From Cyanobacteria bacterium QS_4_48_99 (GTDB lineage Bacteria > Cyanobacteriota > Cyanobacteriia > Cyanobacteriales > Rubidibacteraceae), in contig PXPT01000151.1 in assembly GCA_003021505.1 (NCBI GenBank), positions 1 through 42,451 on the forward strand: a stretch of DNA of 42,451 nt, written 5' to 3'. Both the position numbers and the translations under genes were made by a program. Below, piece by piece: positions 14,726-27,288 of this stretch; position 1 is the first letter of the stretch, and each line of letters starts with the position of its first letter. Below the pieces are notes generated by a model. It was not told the origin of the DNA, ran no database searches, and worked only from the letters and a program-made list of their open reading frames with translations.

Positions 14726-16096
14726 TTAGCTATTAGCCAACTGAACAATCTCGTGGGTAACACTCATACTTTCCTCGTAGAGAACCTCACGAGTTTGGCG
14801 TTGTAGCTGCTGAGCGAGTAACTTCTCCGTCTTTTGGTCAAACAGAGGAGTCACTTGCTCAATCCGGCAAGACTGTGCCCCACCACCTGCTTCCATACGC
14901 ATGCAACCTGTCGTTTCCGAACACAAGACAGTACAGCAGTCTGCTTCTAGATTGGTGGAACTCAGGCGTAAGCTAATCAGGTCCCCCGAGATTTCTCCCT
15001 GATCGGCAATGGGAATGGCGGCTAACTCTGCTTCAATCGAACGTTGGTTCTCGGCGCTAAATTTAATTTTTCTGATCTCATAGTCACCGCCTTCGATTTG
15101 GTAGGAAACCGGACGCCACTGCAAACGACTTGCTAACCAACCTAGATACATGAGCGCCTGCGCTTGATTCCCTTTTTCGTAATCAATCGTTACCCGATCA
15201 AGTTCACCGAGCGCCGAACGACGTTCTGGGGGATCAAACGCTTCAGCAGCTAACTCTTGCCATGCTGATAGCCGTCGCCAATTCAAATCAGCCAGGGGCA
15301 TTCCCTGCTCGATGAGGTCGCCTGCTCGCAACAGGTCAACCTCGGGATTGTTAAAGGTACTAGAATCAATCATGACCAGCTCGCTATTAGCGGCTAGTCG
15401 CTGAAACAGAGCGTATTCTGGTTGCGGTGTCGCCCTCCACCAGACAAATTTGGGAAGCTCGTTGAGCCTCAGCGTTGAGATCATGCCCCTAATTCGTTCT
15501 AGGGCGGCGGCTGTGCCACGCAGCGTAATGTACTCGCAGCATACTAAGGTGGTATTCTGGCTTTGCTGATCGATGGGGCAATAGGCTGAGACTTGAGCTT
15601 CCACTCCTTCGTCCTCCCCCAAAGTGGGGCAAAGGGTGATGATGCGGCAGGGATTAGAAGCAGCGATCGCATTAGTAACCCCACTACTTTCTAGGTCTGG
15701 AGAGGACTGTGGGGCTGCAGTTGTGCTCTCTTCAGTAGAATCGTTTTGCTTGGCTTGAGTGTATTCTTCTCGTAACTTGCTGAGTAACTCCGGCTCTGGT
15801 TTACCCGTAACTGACAGTCCGTAACCTTTCTGAGCAGCCTTGATCGCCGCTGTTGTCTGCGAACCAGCTATGCCATCCACTGAACTCTCATAAAAGCCTA
15901 GTGCTGCCAAGAGCTGTTGCGTTGCATCTGGTTCGTAAACTACTATACTGAAAGTAGTAGCGCGACTGGCAGTAAGCCCTTCTTCACTGGAACTGTAATT
16001 TTGCCAGAGTTGATGAAGTTCTGCCTCAATTTCCTCAATCGAGACATCTTTGGGCTCTTGTAGAGAAACAATGGGAGAAGATTGGGTGGTTGTCAT
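14726..16096 (-). CDS. opcA: Glucose-6-phosphate dehydrogenase assembly protein OpcA
   Basis: OpcA is the cyanobacterial partner needed for full activity and redox control of G6PDH. The 456-residue protein starts MTTTQSSPIVSLQEPKDVSIEEIEAEL. A peptidoglycan-binding-like insert follows (about 56-112, LLAALGFYESSVDGIAGSQTTAAIKAAQ), as is usual for the cyanobacterial form, then a Ser/Thr-rich linker, then the large OpcA domain with LPKFVWWRATPQPE and the C-terminal Cys-containing DCCTVLCSETTGC stretch. It lies 74 bp after zwf on the same strand, the classical zwf-opcA pairing, and is almost certainly cotranscribed. Confidence 0.95.
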   Translation of the reverse strand: MTTTQSSPIVSLQEPKDVSIEEIEAELHQLWQNYSSSEEGLTASRATTFSIVVYEPDATQQLLAALGFYESSVDGIAGSQTTAAIKAAQKGYGLSVTGKPEPELLSKLREEYTQAKQNDSTEESTTAAPQSSPDLESSGVTNAIAASNPCRIITLCPTLGEDEGVEAQVSAYCPIDQQSQNTTLVCCEYITLRGTAAALERIRGMISTLRLNELPKFVWWRATPQPEYALFQRLAANSELVMIDSSTFNNPEVDLLRAGDLIEQGMPLADLNWRRLSAWQELAAEAFDPPERRSALGELDRVTIDYEKGNQAQALMYLGWLASRLQWRPVSYQIEGGDYEIRKIKFSAENQRSIEAELAAIPIADQGEISGDLISLRLSSTNLEADCCTVLCSETTGCMRMEAGGGAQSCRIEQVTPLFDQKTEKLLAQQLQRQTREVLYEESMSVTHEIVQLANS

Positions 16097-16170
16097 AGCT
16101 AGTAGTGTTACTAACGTGTAGTTCGTAGATTAGCAGGTCGGCAGGTTAGCAGGTGATCAATTTAACCTTT

Positions 16171-17697
16171 TTACAGTCTGCGCCAGCGGCGACCATCTCG
16201 GTTCATTAAATATTCTGCCTCCCTAGGCTCCCAAGTTCCTGCCTCATACTGGGGAACCGATGCGGGGTCGGAGTATTCATCCCAAACGGAGAGAGCTGGT
16301 GTTAGCAGCCGCCATGCTTCTTCGACTTCATCAGCACGAGTAAATAGGGTTTGGTCGCCCAGCATGCAATCGAGTAAAAGTCGGTTATAGGCATCTGATG
16401 TTGCCATGCCAGAGGAGCCGTAGCTAAAGTCCATATCCACTGATCGCGTCCGCAGTTCTGGTCCTGGCATTTTTGCCTCAAAGCGCAGAGCAATTCCCTC
16501 ATTGGGCTGAATCCGCATCGTCAGCACATTCGGATTAGTCTGTTGCGCTGCCGACTGGAAAATCAACAGGGGAACTTCACGAAACTGGATGGCGATTTCT
16601 GTCACCTTCTTCGGTAGCCGCTTGCCTGTTCGCAGGTAAAAAGGAACGCCCTTCCAGCGCCAGTTATCGCATAAGAATTTCAAAGCCACAAAGGTGGGTG
16701 TGGTGGAGTTGGGATCTACCCCCTCCTCTTCCCGATACCCCGGAACCTGCTTGCCATTCATCCAGCCTGGAGCATACTGACCGCGAATCGCAGAGCGATT
16801 GAGATCGTTTACATCTGCCAGGTGTGTGGTTTCAAGCACCTTGGTTTTTTCGGTGCGAATGCTATCGGCATCCAGCGCGTTAGGTGGCTCCATTGCCGTG
16901 ATGGACAAAAGCTGCATCAGGTGGTTTTGCACCATATCCCTGAGAGCGCCGGAGGCTTCGTAGTAACCGGCTCGGTCTTCAACTCCGACGGTTTCTGCCA
17001 CTGTGATTTGCACGTGATCTACAAACTGGCGATTCCACAATGGCTCAAAAATGGCATTGCCGAATCGGAAAACTAAGAGGTTCTGAACCGTTTCTTTGCC
17101 CAAGTAGTGGTCAATGCGATAAACCTGCTTTTCGTCGCAGACGCTTTGCACCACGCGGTTGAGGGAACGAGCTGAACTCAAGTCCTTACCAAAGGGTTTT
17201 TCGATCACCAAGCGGGTTTTCATCTGGTCCTTGAGCATTCCCGCATCACCGAGCTGTTTCAAGGCAGCCTTATAGAGCTTGGGAGCTACTGCCAGATAAA
17301 AAACGCGGTTCCCTCTGGTTCCCCGTTGCCCATCTAAATCTTCGAGAAAGGAGTTCAGCTCTTGATAGCTTTCGGGTTCGTCGATGTTGCCGGAGCAATA
17401 GTACAACCCTTGAGCAAAGTCTTTCCAGAGTTCCTCACTTTCAATGCCTGTGGAAAACTGCTCGACACCCTCGCGCATCTGCTCTCGAAAGTAGTCGTGG
17501 CTCCACTTGCGACGGGCAACGCCCACAATGGTAGTTTCGGGTGGCAGTCGGTGTTCTCGCTTCAGTTCGTAAATAGCAGGAACAAGCTTGCGCTGGGTAA
17601 GATCTCCAGACGCACCGAAAATGACCATGATCAATGGTTCTGGAACTCGTTCCTGTTGCAGTCCAACCCGGAGGGGGTTTTCTAGAAGAGTCACCAT
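16171..17697 (-). CDS. zwf: Glucose-6-phosphate 1-dehydrogenase
   Basis: G6PDH catalyses the first step of the oxidative pentose phosphate pathway, glucose-6-phosphate plus NADP+ to 6-phosphogluconolactone, and is the main source of NADPH in darkness. At 508 residues it is full length. [12 protein letters not shown] (27-38) is the dinucleotide site and RIDHYLGKE (194-202) the substrate and catalytic motif. Cysteines occur at 101, 187, 343 and 444; 187 and 444 sit where the thioredoxin-sensitive pair of cyanobacterial enzymes is reported, so redox inactivation in light is expected. The gene lies between tal (79 bp upstream) and opcA. Confidence 0.97.
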
Positions 17698-17776
17698 ATT
17701 TGTTAATGGCTAATGGCTAAGGGCTAAGTGCTAATGGTAGGCGAACCATAAACCATTAGCAACTAGCATCACGAGT

Positions 17777-18931
17777 TTACACGGTGGCGAGCCGCTTAAC
17801 TTTTTCATCAAGGGATGACATTAGGGACTCATAGGGCTTGACAAATTTGTTAATCGCCTCTGCGAGAAGTTCATCCATGACAGCATTGATATTGATATCC
17901 ACGTCGGGATCTTTAAGATTTTCCATCAACTGGTAAGCTTCCTCGACGTTAGTTTCAATCCGATTAGCTTCGGGGGAGCAGTGATCAGCGCAGGCTTCGA
18001 TGGTGTCGGGAGGCATGGTGTTGACGGTGTAGTTCCCCACCAGCCCATCAACGTACATAACATCGCTATACTTGGGGTTCTTGGTTCCGGTGCTTGCCCA
18101 GAGCAAGCGCTGCACATGAGCTCCTTTCTCTTCTAGTGCCTTCCAGCGATCGCTTCCGAAAATCTCTTTGAATTTCTGGTAGGCAATTTTGGCGTTGGCA
18201 ATGGCAACTTTGCCTTGAATATCGGTGAGCTTCGACTCTTGATCTTGCCGATCAGTACCCTTGAGCTTCTCCTCAATGTAACCGTCAACTTTGACATCAA
18301 TGCGGCTGAGGAAGAAACTTGCCACTGACGCAATTTTGCTGATGTCTTTCCCTGCGGCTGCCCGCTTTTCTAAGCCTCGGATATAAGCCCAAGCGGTATC
18401 GACATAGCTTTGTACCGAAAACAGCAGGGTGACATTGATATTGATTCCTTCACTGATTGCCTGCTCGAAAGCCGGGATGCCTTCTGGCGTTCCCGGAATC
18501 TTAATCATTACATTCTCGCGATCAATCTCGTTGAAATAGCGCCTTGCTTCCGAGATGGAGCTTTCGGTGTCTTTGGCGATCGTGGGTGGGACTTCGATAC
18601 TGACATAACCGTCCAGTCCGTTGGTTTCATCGTAAACCGGCTTTAATTGATCGCAGGCATCGCGAATATCTTTAAACACCAGGGATTCATAAATCTGTTG
18701 AACCGATTTGCCTTCTTTAATTCCTGCTTCAATGTCGGCATCATAGGTTTGATTTCCCGAGATCGCTTTTTCAAAAATCGTCGGATTAGACGTGATGCCA
18801 TGAATCCCTCGACTCTGGATCAACATCTTGAGTTCACCCGACTCAATGATGTCACGGCTCAAGTTATCCATCCAGATACTTTGACCGTATTCTTTTTCAA
18901 TTTGGAAAATGGGATTTTGTGCGGTAGTCAT
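17777..18931 (-). CDS. tal: Transaldolase
   Basis: Transaldolase moves a dihydroxyacetone unit between sugar phosphates in the non-oxidative pentose phosphate pathway. The start chosen is ATG 18931 (MTTAQNPIFQIEKEYGQSIWMDNLSRD), which has GGGA just upstream; the frame is open for 29 further codons, but those are not transaldolase-like and would fill the fbp-tal spacer. The Schiff-base lysine is Lys144 in ENVMIKIPGTPEG. GITSNPTIFEKAISG (44-58) is the typical N-terminal motif. At 384 residues it fits the long bacterial class found in filamentous cyanobacteria. It lies between fbp and zwf. Confidence 0.96.
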   Translation of the reverse strand: MTTAQNPIFQIEKEYGQSIWMDNLSRDIIESGELKMLIQSRGIHGITSNPTIFEKAISGNQTYDADIEAGIKEGKSVQQIYESLVFKDIRDACDQLKPVYDETNGLDGYVSIEVPPTIAKDTESSISEARRYFNEIDRENVMIKIPGTPEGIPAFEQAISEGININVTLLFSVQSYVDTAWAYIRGLEKRAAAGKDISKIASVASFFLSRIDVKVDGYIEEKLKGTDRQDQESKLTDIQGKVAIANAKIAYQKFKEIFGSDRWKALEEKGAHVQRLLWASTGTKNPKYSDVMYVDGLVGNYTVNTMPPDTIEACADHCSPEANRIETNVEEAYQLMENLKDPDVDININAVMDELLAEAINKFVKPYESLMSSLDEKVKRLATV

Positions 18932-19018
18932 AGTTTTCCCTTTTGATTGTTTCTCTATTGTAAATTTTGCCGCTTGGTTGCGTTTTTTATGGTGACAAGC
19001 GTTACAAACTTTTCCCAA

Positions 19019-20089
19019 TTAAGTCTGTGAATGCGCCATAGCAGTTTCTTGGGATTGAGCTGGCATGAAAGATTCCACCAGCTTCACGTTTTCTCGACTG
19101 CCAATAATTAGTGGGGTTCGCATGTGAATCTTGTCAGGAATAACATCTAAAATTTCTTGAGTTCCTGTCGTTGCCCTTCCCCCTGCTTGTTCGGTTAAAA
19201 AGGCAAGAGGAGCAGATTCATAAAGTAGGCGTAGTTTTCCTTCTGGCTTTTTGACAGTGCCCGGGTAGAGGAATACACCCCCCTGCAAGAGAATGCGGTG
19301 GAAGTCTCCCACTAAAGCCCCGCCATAGCGGGCACTATAACCTTCATTGCGATGGACATAGCGTACGTATTCCCGCAGGGGTTCTTCCCATTGCCAGAAA
19401 TTCCCCTCATTAAGGCTGTAAATTGCCCCATATTCGGGAATTTGAATGTTTTCTTGTGCCAGGATAAACTCACCTAAGCTGGGATCCAGAGTGAAGGAGT
19501 GAACGCCATTCCCGGTCGAGTAAACTAACATCGTGCTTGCCCCGTAGAGAATGTAGCCCGCTGCAACTTGTTTGCGTCCAGTTTGCAGAAGATCATTGGC
19601 ATTGCCATCAACGTCGTTGCCCTCTTGCTGGCAAATGGAGAAAATGGAACCAACGTTGAGATTAGTATCAATGTTCGAGGAGCCGTCTACGGGATCGTAA
19701 AGTAAGGTATAGCGTCCGATTGGGCAATTTTCGGGAATATAGTAGGGCTTCTCCATTTCCTCGGATGCCAAGCGGCAAACTAAACCGCTTTGCTCGAACA
19801 CGGAGATAAACACGTCATTGGCGTAGACATCCATCTTTTTGACGGATTCTCCTTGGACGTTTTCTTCGCCTGTCACGCCTAGCGCGCCTTCCATGATCCC
19901 AGCGCGGCTGAGGCGTCTAGAGATAAGCTTTGCCGCTAGGGCGATCCGATTCATGATTGCGCTGAGATCCTGTGCCTCCTGCGAAAAACTCTGGAATTGC
20001 TGCAAAACGTGATGCGACAAAGTTCTACAATCTCTCTCCAGGGCGGAATTCTGAGCCTGGGATTGCTCAACGTTAGTCATGGGATTCAT
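19019..20089 (-). CDS. fbp: Fructose-1,6-bisphosphatase, class I
   Basis: This enzyme hydrolyses fructose-1,6-bisphosphate in gluconeogenesis and the sugar-phosphate cycles. The metal and phosphate site [13 protein letters not shown] (132-144) is intact, as are the N-terminal helices ([12 protein letters not shown]) and the C-terminal [16 protein letters not shown] with the catalytic Glu region. The 356 residues are of normal length. The start is either Met1 or Met4. It is the first gene of the leftward fbp-tal-zwf-opcA run, known as an operon in Nostoc-type cyanobacteria, so the promoter should lie in 20090-20450. Confidence 0.96.
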
Positions 20090-21750: not shown

Positions 21751-24700
21751 TCACTGTTCAGGAAAGAGGCACTTGTCCGAATCGCAGCCTGCTGGACCAG
21801 CTTCTGCGAACTCGCCTGCATCATAGCGACTTAGGGCGGTTTGAAAATCGGACTGCTTGCGTCGCCTTTCTACCCCTTGCATGAGCTGCTCGTACTGCTG
21901 TTGGGTGATGGGTTCAAACGGCAAACGCGGGAAGCTTTGATGGGCATCAAACCGTGCTAAAAGCGCCGCTGAGATATAGCCCTCATCGTCTCGAATGGCT
22001 TCGTAAATACGAGTGCCGAGGGCTTCGATTTCATTCTCCCGGAGTTCAATGGTGGCAGAGGTATTGTGTGTTGTCCAAAAACGTTGCACATTGAGGTAAA
22101 AATCCATCTGCGCGATCGCGCTAAATTGATTAATATCGATTTGATCAGCACCAGGCAAATCTGCCCAAGGCAAAGCCACAGGAATTTCCACTAGCCATTC
22201 CGTGCAGCGCTCATCAAAGGGATCATTGAGCAGATTCCCATTTTCATCCTTATCCGACTGAGAAGGGATGACATTGTAGCCGTAGTCAATGCAGGCAAGC
22301 GCCACGGGGTCATTTTTGCCAAAGGTAATCCGGCGAATGTAGCGCACAGCTTTGGGGGGATGCCACCCCGGAGAAGCATTGGTTAGTAAGGATTTAGTAC
22401 CAGAGGGTTGGACACAAGTGCAGCGGTTGGGGAGTTTTAATCCGTGGCGATCGCAATACTCCCAGATTACCCGATGCACAATTTCTTGCCAGCGACTTAG
22501 GTACTCCTGTTCTTGCCGCTTAAATGCCAGTCCTTGGGAAGTTTCTGGTCGTCCTTCTTCCCACCAGCGCAGCCAAGGATAGCCAAAGGCATGGACGAAA
22601 AAGTCAAACAAGCCTGTGAAGGATACCCCCACAATGGGATCGAGTTCGCGGCTATATTGATAGCGCGGCTCAATAAACTGGTGATGGAGGAGTGCTGCTA
22701 CCGAGAGCGCACCCGCAGTGAAGGCTTCTTCTTGTTCTTGATCGTTTTGTGGATCAATCTGATTGAGATGTACTTCACTGAGATTGCAATTACCAGTCAA
22801 CGTATTGCCAAAAACACCTTTGTTAAATTCTGGTTCGTTGAAACAATAGGTATCATGTAATCCTGGTAATTCCTCTACACATTGAACGATTTGTTCTTTC
22901 CCCTTAAATTTAGGTTGATGTCCTTTGCTAGTATCTAGCCTTTGGCAAGGAATACCTGCACAATCATTAATTTGCAAGTAGTAGATGTCTTGAGACCTCT
23001 TACCTAAATTGGTAGAAGATTGTCGCTGTGCCATGAAGTTGACAGAGCATCGAATTCCACATTTGCACAAAAGCAGTTGCAGGCATCGCGCCCTTTCGTA
23101 GTCAGAAACATAAATGCGGATGCCATTGCTGGAAGTATTAGAACCATCTGTGTCAGCTAATCCTGCTATAAAAGCAAGAATCGCTTGTTTGTTCCAACTT
23201 CCAATCAGATTTAATGCCTCAGCCTCGGTTTTTAGGCGACGCAGCAACTCTCCTGAAAAGTCTAGTTCTGTAATATCTACCAAGGGGAACAAATAATCAT
23301 AGTTTCGCGAACTTGATTTTTTTCCAGCAACTGCCAGTTCAGGTTGTTGAGAGTAAAGCCGCACTTTAGCATTCCCGTTTTGGTCTAGAGTTCCATCACC
23401 TGCCGCGACTCCTAATGTGTAAGCACGATTCAGGTCAATTTCCTTTCCATCTTCATACTCAATGGTAAACGGTTCAGTGTGTATTCTGTATTTGCTGTGG
23501 TTCGATAAATCCTTCGTTTGTACCTCTTGATAGCTTTTACCAAATCTATCTTTGACGAAAAAGCGATGGTATTCTGTCGCATCTAAGTAGGAACCATCAC
23601 CAAACCAAACCCTGTATAATTTTTGCCCTGTATTAGTTTGAAATGGCGTTACTTGGCTCCAGCGCTTCCCATTCCAAACTTCAACTTCTTGCCCCACAAC
23701 ATCCTTAATTTGGTGGATGCCATCACGAGTAATTAACCAAGTATCACCAGAGACACAATGAAAATTGGAACCAATTATTTCACCGCAGTTGTGAGCAACT
23801 ATGCCGTTAGCATCAAACCTTGATACTTGTGGAACTGTGCAATCATAAACGGGTTCGACGCCATCAGAAATAATCTCAGCAACCGTGACAGTAAAGCGTT
23901 CTCGGTTTAATTGACCTTGGTAGTCTCCGAGTATTTTTTGGAGTCTTGCTCGTTTAGATTCATCTTGAAAATTAACTAGGGCTTGAAACTCGTAAAGATT
24001 ATCTCTTGAAACGATGAGTTCATGCTGTGCCTGACAATGATCGGATTTAGTTTTTCCTTTACCGTCAGGAGGACAGCGATCATGCTCAGTGCGACGATTT
24101 TGATCGATTACAGAAACAATTCCTAGACGTAGAAGCATTCGCTGAACTGCTTGAAGGAGTTCCAGATTACTCTGAGCTAAACGAACACTCGCTCCTTTTA
24201 TTTGATTTCCCTGTACACTTCCATTAGCATCAAAAACGCCCTGAAGGAATCCCTTATAGAAATCGTAACTTGCCTGTTCAATTTTTATCGTGTTATTGCC
24301 ATGACTTAAATCGAATTCATGGGCAAGTTCGTATAAAGTTGCTCCTCCTACTTCCATGTAGTCATTTTTATCTAGAGTGGTTGGAATTAAGCTAGCAGCA
24401 TGGGAAGCTGTCTTTTGCTGGTATTCTCCCCAATAGTGAAGTACGGCTTTTCTCTGATAGGAAGTTTGATTAATGCTATAGCAACCATCACCGATAAAAC
24501 TTCCAAGCAGCCATCCTTGCTCAAATGTTCCTTCTCCATACCAAGGCTGTAAATCTCTATGGTTGTGGATTAGAATCTTATCCCCAGGTTTCAGGTTCTT
24601 GAGCTTAACCCACTCAGAATACTGCTTTTTCTGAGTCTGGGCAGTCACTTTCAATAGTTGATGGTTATCTGTCAACCGCAAAGAGATTCCTTCGGTGGTG

Positions 24701-27288
24701 GTTAACTGGTGAATCGGCTTAATACCACTCTGGTAGAAACCTTCTGGGGTAGTGCTAAACAGCTCTCCATTGACGTAAACGCTCACCTGCTCGCCGATGA
24801 GATCTTTAATTTGTCTCGCGCCAAATTCGGTGTGAATCCAGGTATCTGCACTCAGACACGGGTTAAGCCCGTAACGAGCTAAGCGATGCTCTAGCTCATC
24901 GGCATCTAGGTTGGGATAGCTTTTCTGCAACCACTGTTTTGCTGTCCCTCGTTCATAAACTTTTAAAAACTCAGCTTTCATATCCGGGGTGGCTAGCAAA
25001 TCACGGTTGGCTCTAGCGACAGCTTCACCAGCCCACTGAATCGCTCCCTCGCCGGAGTAGTATTGGCTACGGACAGCATCAACACATTCTTCTAGTTTCG
25101 GCTTGTGGTGGTAAACGCGGGAGTGATTTGCCATCCTGAGCGCATCCCGTTCTGGATCAATGCGCCAGTTCCCTTCTTCGTCTGGTTGCCAAAGGTTTTG
25201 CTTGAGCAGCGGAGAATCGGCATTGAATTGTCTCATGCCCGCACTGTTGTGGGTTAAATACCCATCACAATAGAAGCAGTGAGCCTCTTCAACTTCAATG
25301 TCATAAGTTTTGAGGTAATCGCAGCTCCCTACGCCTTGTACTGTTACAGGAATATCAAGAGTGACATCGGATTCAGCAACGTAACGCTCATAGTTGGAAT
25401 CGACAAAGCGAAAGCCTTGAAAGCCCCACTCTCTCATTTCGCTGTAGGTATAAGCCTCACGCATCATTTCACCAGCAATAGTGAAGCCATACATCTTTAG
25501 TCCTTGATGTAATTTTCCTTTGACAGCGTGAGGCGCAATTAAATCGTTATAGCGGTCTTTTAGTGCTGGAATCGTCAGGTTGTATTTGGGTTGCCAATTT
25601 TGTTGTTTCGGAAGAGTAATTTTCAATCGACCTGCAATTCCCAAGCTAGACAGAACACTAGATACCTGTCTGGCAAATGATCTGTAAACTGTAGTTACTA
25701 GATGAGGGGGTTGATTGTTGATTGCACCATCACTATCCATTAGACCTGCTAAATAGGCAGCTCTAACATCGGCCATTCCTTGCAAGATGAAGCTGGGAAC
25801 TGCAATCGGTTTATGGGGTTGCTTGATATGTTTCGAGAAGTATTCAGCTAATCGGATCGATGAACAGACTGAGAGAATAGTGTTTTCGCCATTTAATTGG
25901 TTGTGACGAGCGCGTAAACCAAACTTAGCTAGAGCAGAGTCTAGTTTAGTCTGTATTTGGGGGGAAATTTTTTCGTCTAAGGCGTTGGTTGCCCAATAAA
26001 CGTAACCATAAGGTTTGTCGTGTTTATTACGACCCAATGAAACGTAGCCGTCACCATGAGTGAAACCAATTAGCCAAGCAATCTCAGGGGTCAAATGTGG
26101 AACTACTAACGATTTAGCTGTTCTACTACGAGCAGGTCTTTTCTCGGTAAAGTCATCGGGCAAAGAGGTGGGTATCCCTGGCAACACTTGCGTGTTGTGC
26201 ATCAGCCTGTCGCCTTCACTCAAGTTGGAAACTTGCTTCCAAGCAACAGACCCGGTGGCATCAGCTAAAACTGCTTGCCTGTGATTGAGGGTAGCTCTTG
26301 GGAGAGTCGCATTAGTCTCGATTTCGTGAACTTCCTGATCCCCCTGGTCAAACTTATCTAGCACTTTTCTGAAGCCTACAGGAGTCTGCACCAGATCTCC
26401 TACCTGGATCTCCTTAATCGGAATAAGACCCTCCGATGTATGAACGAGTGCGTCTTCAGGGAGGCATCTTCTGATATTTCCGGCAACAACACTTGCTGCT
26501 GCTTCGTCGATTAACAAGCAGCATTCTTCAGGATTCAGTTGTCGCCCCACTGCCCGATTCAGAATCTTTGCAATGCGGGGGAACAAGTCAGGGAATTTAA
26601 TGGGATTGGCAACGCCGCCAAAGCCTTTGAGGAGTTCCCCAGCAGGACGTACATGACTGGGATCGACTTTAACTTCAACTTCTTTGGCAAACTGCCCATC
26701 ACTGGATAGTTCCAGCAGGGCTTGATATGACTGAATCCAGCCGTTTCTGGAGTCTCCGACGCTAATTTGAACGCAACCTGCGCTCTCTACCTTAACTTCT
26801 GTTTGTTCCCGACGGGCTTGAGGCGAAACTGAGCCAATCTCGCCGATGAGCTTGACGTTGAGGCGATTGCGAATAGGAGGGAGTTGGTTGATGTATGGGG
26901 TTTCGAGAACAGCACCCGTGCCACAACCCATCATGGCTAAATCCATCATTAAGCCGAAGGCACGCCAGTCTACAACATTGGTTGAGGTGCAGTTATATGC
27001 GCCTGAGAAGTTCTTCTGTGCCTCTAGCCACTCCGTACCGCCTACCCATAGCCAGCGACCAGAGGGAAGGCTTTTTAGGGAGCGCATTGTCCGCTCTAGA
27101 AGTTCTTGTTCTTGGGGGGTGAGTTTGCCGAGGTTAACTAGCCCTTCGATGGTGCGATCGCAAACTTGCTCCCAACTCTCTCGACCTTCCCCAGTGCGAC
27201 GACTGTAGGTTCTGAAAAAGACTGGGTTAGCAGCGGGTGCAGCGGGAGGAAAGCCAACCGTATGTTTGCTCTCAAGCTCTCTGGTCAT
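21751..27288 (-). CDS. nrdJ: Adenosylcobalamin-dependent (class II) ribonucleotide reductase with three inteins
   Basis: The precursor is 1845 residues. Removing inteins 275-681, 811-1167 and 1178-1500 leaves a 758-residue reductase like monomeric RTPR, which reduces ribonucleotides using a cobalamin-made thiyl radical. Key cysteines: Cys100 (YNCTSTN) and Cys1501 (SNFH-CNLSE) form the redox pair, Cys1168 (NP-CGEI) is the radical cysteine, and Cys1835/Cys1840 (CDSDKC) are the C-terminal shuttle pair. Two of the three inteins sit directly before active-site cysteines, at highly conserved positions as inteins usually do. Without splicing the enzyme would be inactive. A candidate pair of NrdR boxes lies upstream. 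cbiA in this window belongs to the pathway making its cofactor. Confidence 0.95.
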   Translation of the reverse strand: MTRELESKHTVGFPPAAPAANPVFFRTYSRRTGEGRESWEQVCDRTIEGLVNLGKLTPQEQELLERTMRSLKSLPSGRWLWVGGTEWLEAQKNFSGAYNCTSTNVVDWRAFGLMMDLAMMGCGTGAVLETPYINQLPPIRNRLNVKLIGEIGSVSPQARREQTEVKVESAGCVQISVGDSRNGWIQSYQALLELSSDGQFAKEVEVKVDPSHVRPAGELLKGFGGVANPIKFPDLFPRIAKILNRAVGRQLNPEECCLLIDEAAASVVAGNIRRCLPEDALVHTSEGLIPIKEIQVGDLVQTPVGFRKVLDKFDQGDQEVHEIETNATLPRATLNHRQAVLADATGSVAWKQVSNLSEGDRLMHNTQVLPGIPTSLPDDFTEKRPARSRTAKSLVVPHLTPEIAWLIGFTHGDGYVSLGRNKHDKPYGYVYWATNALDEKISPQIQTKLDSALAKFGLRARHNQLNGENTILSVCSSIRLAEYFSKHIKQPHKPIAVPSFILQGMADVRAAYLAGLMDSDGAINNQPPHLVTTVYRSFARQVSSVLSSLGIAGRLKITLPKQQNWQPKYNLTIPALKDRYNDLIAPHAVKGKLHQGLKMYGFTIAGEMMREAYTYSEMREWGFQGFRFVDSNYERYVAESDVTLDIPVTVQGVGSCDYLKTYDIEVEEAHCFYCDGYLTHNSAGMRQFNADSPLLKQNLWQPDEEGNWRIDPERDALRMANHSRVYHHKPKLEECVDAVRSQYYSGEGAIQWAGEAVARANRDLLATPDMKAEFLKVYERGTAKQWLQKSYPNLDADELEHRLARYGLNPCLSADTWIHTEFGARQIKDLIGEQVSVYVNGELFSTTPEGFYQSGIKPIHQLTTTEGISLRLTDNHQLLKVTAQTQKKQYSEWVKLKNLKPGDKILIHNHRDLQPWYGEGTFEQGWLLGSFIGDGCYSINQTSYQRKAVLHYWGEYQQKTASHAASLIPTTLDKNDYMEVGGATLYELAHEFDLSHGNNTIKIEQASYDFYKGFLQGVFDANGSVQGNQIKGASVRLAQSNLELLQAVQRMLLRLGIVSVIDQNRRTEHDRCPPDGKGKTKSDHCQAQHELIVSRDNLYEFQALVNFQDESKRARLQKILGDYQGQLNRERFTVTVAEIISDGVEPVYDCTVPQVSRFDANGIVAHNCGEIIGSNFHCVSGDTWLITRDGIHQIKDVVGQEVEVWNGKRWSQVTPFQTNTGQKLYRVWFGDGSYLDATEYHRFFVKDRFGKSYQEVQTKDLSNHSKYRIHTEPFTIEYEDGKEIDLNRAYTLGVAAGDGTLDQNGNAKVRLYSQQPELAVAGKKSSSRNYDYLFPLVDITELDFSGELLRRLKTEAEALNLIGSWNKQAILAFIAGLADTDGSNTSSNGIRIYVSDYERARCLQLLLCKCGIRCSVNFMAQRQSSTNLGKRSQDIYYLQINDCAGIPCQRLDTSKGHQPKFKGKEQIVQCVEELPGLHDTYCFNEPEFNKGVFGNTLTGNCNLSEVHLNQIDPQNDQEQEEAFTAGALSVAALLHHQFIEPRYQYSRELDPIVGVSFTGLFDFFVHAFGYPWLRWWEEGRPETSQGLAFKRQEQEYLSRWQEIVHRVIWEYCDRHGLKLPNRCTCVQPSGTKSLLTNASPGWHPPKAVRYIRRITFGKNDPVALACIDYGYNVIPSQSDKDENGNLLNDPFDERCTEWLVEIPVALPWADLPGADQIDINQFSAIAQMDFYLNVQRFWTTHNTSATIELRENEIEALGTRIYEAIRDDEGYISAALLARFDAHQSFPRLPFEPITQQQYEQLMQGVERRRKQSDFQTALSRYDAGEFAEAGPAGCDSDKCLFPEQ
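22789..23757 (-). other. Intein 3 of NrdJ (323 aa, LAGLIDADG endonuclease)
   Basis: Residues 1178-1500. It starts CVSGDTW and has block B T-x-x-H (ATEYH). Endonuclease motifs are LGVAAGDG and IAGLADTDG, with both acidic residues present. It ends GNTLTGN, with Cys as the next residue. The residue before the terminal Asn is Gly rather than the usual His, which can slow Asn cyclisation unless compensated. It interrupts SNFH|CNLSE. Confidence 0.93.
23788..24858 (-). other. Intein 2 of NrdJ (357 aa, LAGLIDADG endonuclease)
   Basis: Residues 811-1167. It starts CLSADTW, has block B LTDNH, and ends GIVAHN followed by the catalytic Cys of the host. Endonuclease motifs are LGSFIGDG and LQGVFDANG; the second has Asn in place of the catalytic Asp, so double-strand cutting is doubtful. 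The host residue before it is Pro (GLNP), an unusual neighbour for the first splicing step. Confidence 0.93.
25246..26466 (-). other. Intein 1 of NrdJ (407 aa, LAGLIDADG endonuclease)
   Basis: Residues 275-681. It starts CLPEDALV, has block B TLNH, and ends GYLTHN followed by Ser. Endonuclease motifs are LIGFTHGDG and LAGLMDSDG, both with intact acidic residues, so this one could still be a homing endonuclease. It interrupts NIRR|SAGMRQF. Confidence 0.95.

Follow-up and report, generated by a model that had tools for sequence, protein, structure and literature searches.

Two inteins ten residues apart at the radical cysteine of a cyanobacterial NrdJ: an extreme but recurrent arrangement

Results

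Three inteins in the only ribonucleotide reductase found

We analysed a 42,451-nt stretch of DNA (the window; contig PXPT01000151.1, positions 1 to 42,451) from Cyanobacteria bacterium QS_4_48_99. On its minus strand lies an nrdJ gene whose open reading frame runs through 1845 codons without a stop (Table 1). The host part of the product scored 686 bits against TIGR02505 (cut-off 340), the C-terminal CDSDKC is present, and profile models for LAGLIDADG, intein N-terminal and intein C-terminal regions matched at the expected stretches. The three inteins account for 1087 of the 1845 residues, and once they are excised the 758 host residues form a continuous protein; parsing of the ORF reproduced exactly the intein boundaries and residue counts given in an earlier note on this DNA. 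The same host enzyme in Anabaena PCC 7120 differs in carrying a single intein, which Gleason and Olszewski (2002, cited in PMC12702839) reportedly described as 407 aa long, the length of intein 1 in the window (the two were compared by length only). Near nrdJ there is also an fbp-tal-zwf-opcA cluster (window positions 14726-20089), which is conserved and ordinary for cyanobacteria.

Table 1. The window nrdJ gene and its parts (a slash marks the point of insertion)
Feature	Position	Strand	Description
nrdJ, monomeric AdoCbl-dependent (class II) ribonucleoside-triphosphate reductase with three inteins	21751..27288	-	1845 aa; TIGR02505
Intein 1, 407 aa	25246..26466	-	inserted NIRR/SAGMRQ; +1 Ser; LAGLIDADG endonuclease
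Intein 2, 357 aa	23788..24858	-	inserted GLNP/C; Cys1, block B TDNH, C-terminal HN; LAGLIDADG, second motif DANG
Host segment CGEIIGSNFH, ten residues	23758..23787	-	first residue is the +1 nucleophile of intein 2 and aligns with Cys408 of 1L1L
Intein 3, 323 aa	22789..23757	-	inserted NFH/C; Cys1, block B TEYH, C-terminal GN; LAGLIDADG motifs intact

The genome that contains the window (3.62 Mb in 196 contigs, 99.9% complete) encodes one NrdJ. Models for the two class I subunits, large and small, and for NrdD (PF02867, PF00268 and PF13597, respectively) found nothing in it, and control genomes were positive. Apart from NrdJ, no ribonucleotide reductase was thus found at this level of completeness, and inteins 2 and 3 would therefore both have to splice for growth; if the sole-reductase status holds in a closed genome, the production of deoxyribonucleotides would require the splicing of all three inteins. 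That the pair persists in a reductase that is both essential and the only one speaks for the splicing of both members.

Inteins 2 and 3 flank ten residues that begin with the radical cysteine

The stretch GLNPCGEIIGSN-FHCNLSEV of the window protein aligns with GTNPCGEISLANgEPCNLFEV of PDB 1L1L. In this alignment intein 2 is followed by the counterpart of Cys408 and intein 3 by that of Cys419, the spacing between the two cysteines being one residue shorter in the window NrdJ than in 1L1L. We take Cys408 of 1L1L to be the thiyl-radical Cys and Cys419 to be a redox-active Cys of the Lactobacillus enzyme, and the alignment supports the same identities for the two window cysteines, as the earlier note had proposed.

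The ten-residue piece would have to be redrawn if a related intein-free NrdJ had a longer segment between these positions. We looked for such a case among 62 intein-free cyanobacterial NrdJs, and in every one of them the first Cys up to the second spans exactly ten residues, so the window boundaries stand and their misplacement is ruled out. These empty alleles are also contiguous at both sites (62/62), i.e. the insertions are precise, in-frame and missing from relatives. The same spacing was present in all 96 single or paired alleles that we parsed (the patterns for paired and site-3 alleles themselves required ten), and intein ends at both positions in 33 further loci from two collections exclude chance. 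The downstream extein of intein 2 consists of ten residues plus another intein, as previously suggested, unless intein 3 splices first. In the literature searched we found no discussion of the ten-residue spacing.

An intein directly before a cysteine that occupies the radical-cysteine position by motif is also present in bnrdE of the Bacillus phage SPbeta (SNL/C...TGN/CSEV). That host protein (NrdE) is, however, a class I enzyme with a single intein, whose termini (CVTGETLLLT, TGN) are nearer to those of intein 3 than of intein 2.

Both inteins carry splicing residues, and intein 3 probably splices first

The residues of class 1 inteins are present: Cys or Ser at position 1, block B TxxH, a C-terminal Asn or Gln and a +1 Cys, Ser or Thr. 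Across 24 aligned pairs Cys1, TxxH, the C-terminal HN or G[N/Q] and the +1 Cys were invariant or nearly so. The penultimate residue is His in intein 2 (HN) and Gly in intein 3 (GN), relatives of the latter having GQ; inteins without a penultimate His, or with a terminal Gln, are known to splice, according to titles cited in PMC4031507.

The AlphaFold prediction (mean pLDDT 69) contains two separate modules whose strands and helices are as expected for Hint plus LAGLIDADG domains, and their best structural matches were the TliVMA and PI-PfuI inteins. At the intein 2/intein 3 junction the pLDDT was under 50 and the model is uninformative there. Each intein probably folds as its own Hint/endonuclease module, and two inteins that almost touch might be expected to meet steric difficulty.

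Inteins usually splice over minutes or more. As intein 3 would be translated in under a minute, most precursors should carry both inteins before either of them splices. The residue at position -1 of intein 2 is Pro, which slows the first acyl shift in other inteins (literature on Pro at -1 was not found in our search). Because this Pro precedes Cys1 of intein 2 and usually slows the first step, intein 3 would probably splice first, and intein 2 would follow once its C-extein had been restored. Only after both have spliced is the barrel core that surrounds the radical cysteine predicted to form. Splicing itself, its order and the dependence of folding on it are inferences.

A different outcome is conceivable, in which the N-terminal half of intein 2 and the C-terminal half of intein 3 sometimes cooperate and excise the decapeptide, yielding a dead enzyme and hence a brake on dNTP supply. 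Recognisable splicing halves are common to both inteins (30% identity over about 130 aa) and the catalytic residue does sit in the decapeptide, but cross-pairing is unlikely at 30% identity, no product is known and nothing in the sequence requires one; we therefore regard this outcome as highly improbable.

The intein pair recurs in cyanobacteria and in phage contigs

The presence of inteins at these sites was compared across cyanobacteria, as the earlier note had suggested, in a census of 388 genomes of the class, 323 of which contained the C-terminal part of NrdJ. An intein was found at site 3 in 25 genomes and at site 2 in 64 (60 of type A and 4 of type B), and 14 of the 323 had both. A search with a DNA pattern (intein end, ten codons, intein start) then yielded 29 stretches in named genomes (7 of them from the same genomes as census members) and 4 viral contigs, i.e. 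33 further loci. The named genomes that bear the pair belong to Okeania, Trichodesmium (including T. erythraeum), Leptolyngbya, Nodosilinea, Calothrix, Plectonema, Limnothrix, Laspinema, Microcoleus, Chlorogloea, Halothece and others. The 29 named and 4 viral contigs rule out that the window pair is unique.

Site 2 houses two unrelated inteins, one ending in DANGxVAHN (type A, as in the window) and the other in IANGCxTHN. As both occur beside the same site-3 family, pairs have formed more than once. In T. erythraeum (contig L102) both sites are likewise occupied and CGEIIGSNFH again separates the inteins, whereas its site-2 intein is of the unrelated type (it ends in IANGCLTHN) and further inteins are present. 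Since this contig has the very same pair, the arrangement was already in databases; the RIR1/NrdJ of this species had been listed with four inteins by 2006, as cited in PMC1635734. The inteins themselves are thus ordinary, and their arrangement in the window is extreme but recurrent.

Additional inteins were observed in the NrdJ of Trichodesmium and Okeania (L099, L102 and L091), at PSG/C in L102 and at HN/C in L099, with open frames of up to 2240 codons. Two of the viral contigs (L103 and L104) encode an NrdJ with the intein pair, with further inteins in L103 at site 1 and PSG/C; in a search of GenBank phages nothing reached 60% identity to the phage pair. A type-A site-2 intein also lies before an NP/C cysteine (TxTNP/C) in five loci (L142, L145, L150, L154 and L155). 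The host protein there looks like a different B12-dependent reductase, which suggests that the element crosses between reductase types.

Inteins at the two sites are gained and lost repeatedly and have moved both singly and together

On a host tree of 163 rows the fewest changes were 25 for site 3, 55 for site 2 and 20 for the pair; these counts are rough because the tree is short and weakly supported. Each site appears to gain and lose inteins repeatedly in cyanobacteria, so that pairs would keep arising. The raw counts contained an excess of pairs (14 of 25 site-3 carriers, odds ratio 6.3, p 3e-5). This excess vanished in phylogenetically independent pairs, where we found no association of the two sites, and a positive association was rejected. 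In the 24 type-A pairs the distances of intein 2 and of intein 3 correlated beyond host distance (partial r 0.40, 0/5000 permutations), in partial Mantel tests that run liberal.

Transfer was assessed by comparing the identity at third codon positions of conserved residues between inteins and flanks in 528 pairs of loci. Both inteins were significantly above the flanks in 1 of the 528, the Calothrix loci L089/L090, where third-position identity was 0.98 in intein 2, 10/10 in the mini-exon and 0.94 in intein 3, compared with 0.81 in the flanks (p 3e-12 and 1e-6). Nucleotide identity was 96-100% in the block, 91-93% in the adjoining sequence and 87% further out. This is a clear sequence signature of inteins 2 and 3 and the ten-residue exon having moved as a block, which sequential conversion from one donor would resemble. 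Intein 2 alone was elevated in L082/L108, and intein 3 alone in L109 paired with L110 and with L111. Thus both block and single transfer happen; the sites are only 30 bp apart, which also allows the inteins to travel as a block with the mini-exon.

These data also bear on the alternative that the pair is a purely vertical relic, which arose on one or a few occasions and is now inherited passively, neither intein being cleanly removable without the other. Vertical sharing does account for some pairs (L110/L111, host distance 0.01), but at least 20 pair changes on the host tree, the different site-2 intein types and the transfers visible at synonymous sites all make this explanation unlikely.

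Intein 2 of the window genome seems to have a disabled endonuclease

In intein 2 of the window a catalytic Asp is lost (FDADG to FDANG), so its endonuclease looks disabled in this genome, whereas both motifs of intein 3 are intact. The inteins had been called parasitic, which is a fair term for their origin but fits intein 2 less well here, given the D to N change. The catalytic aspartates were kept in 40 of 42 intein 3 sequences. Among type-A site-2 inteins, one or both were lost in 6/24 pairs (the window included) and in 5/39 that occur alone, which is not a significant difference (p 0.31), and pairing was accordingly rejected as the cause of endonuclease loss. Wherever the type-A site-2 endonuclease of a pair was damaged (besides the window, in L040, L041, L087, L114 and phage L103/L104), the site-3 motifs were intact, a combination compatible with hitchhiking.

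It is therefore worth considering that the pair homes as a single cassette, one endonuclease (here that of intein 3) cutting empty alleles and the endonuclease-dead intein 2 being co-converted. The motif pattern just described agrees with this, as does the block transfer in L089/L090, and the inteins of phage L103 and the Nostocales MAG L082 are closer to each other (0.16/0.17) than are the host parts (0.29). On the other hand, the L082/L103 comparison fails the corrected synonymous-site test, site-2 endonucleases are not lost significantly more often in pairs, transfers of single inteins occur too, and co-homing of two inteins was inefficient in haloarchaeal MCM (PMC10643990). We consider co-homing a tentative possibility. 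A stronger version, in which intein 2, the mini-exon and intein 3 would form a composite mobile element, with the intein 3 endonuclease cutting and the dead intein 2 spreading along, including between phages and hosts, would follow from the 30-bp exon being too short to part the inteins during repair, and seems to us rather doubtful.

The haloarchaeal MCM-a/MCM-d system resembles the nrdJ pair: an essential replication protein carries two active inteins close together at conserved sites, and these are often gained and lost (PMC10643990). It differs in the host protein and in the absence of a co-homing signal along with the inefficient co-homing, whereas nrdJ shows at least one block transfer. 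The same study leaves open how often an endonuclease-free intein homes with the help of its neighbour, and the nrdJ pair bears on whether adjacent inteins promote or impede one another's spread. It has the closest intein spacing met in this analysis. Numerous natural replicates have or lack one partner or the other, and in some cases one of the two endonucleases is dead. The pair is therefore useful as a natural experiment on how neighbouring inteins splice and spread, and it is a stringent test of the minimum extein length between two inteins, in an enzyme that the cell cannot lack.

Overall, we think it probable that the window contains two independent class 1 LAGLIDADG inteins at two insertion sites 30 bp apart in the active site of the only reductase, that such pairs arise recurrently and are occasionally transferred as a block, and that intein 3 splices first.

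A group I-like insert lies close to site 2

A further kind of element was observed at this position: a group I-like intron after nrdJ codon 405, 6 nt downstream of the site-2 intein boundary (L043-L051, L038 and L039). The insert (TGTGGT^...ACTG^GAA) is 246-1181 nt long, and the call of 'group I-like' is based on exon-intron ends and compensating stems only; Rfam gave nothing for it at the gathering threshold and a chance match at a relaxed threshold. Its signature was present in at least 18 census genomes, none of which had a site-2 intein, and in L038 and L039 it lies 8 codons upstream of a site-3 intein. A group I intron has been reported in RIR of Nostoc punctiforme (Meng 2007, cited in PMC12702839). 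This element, too, is self-splicing and lies in the same cyanobacterial gene, although it splices RNA and not protein. In L048 the long form of the insert contains an open frame of 344 aa that weakly matches NUMOD3 and has a KPDF...VEIKG motif; it is perhaps a PD-(D/E)xK homing endonuclease.
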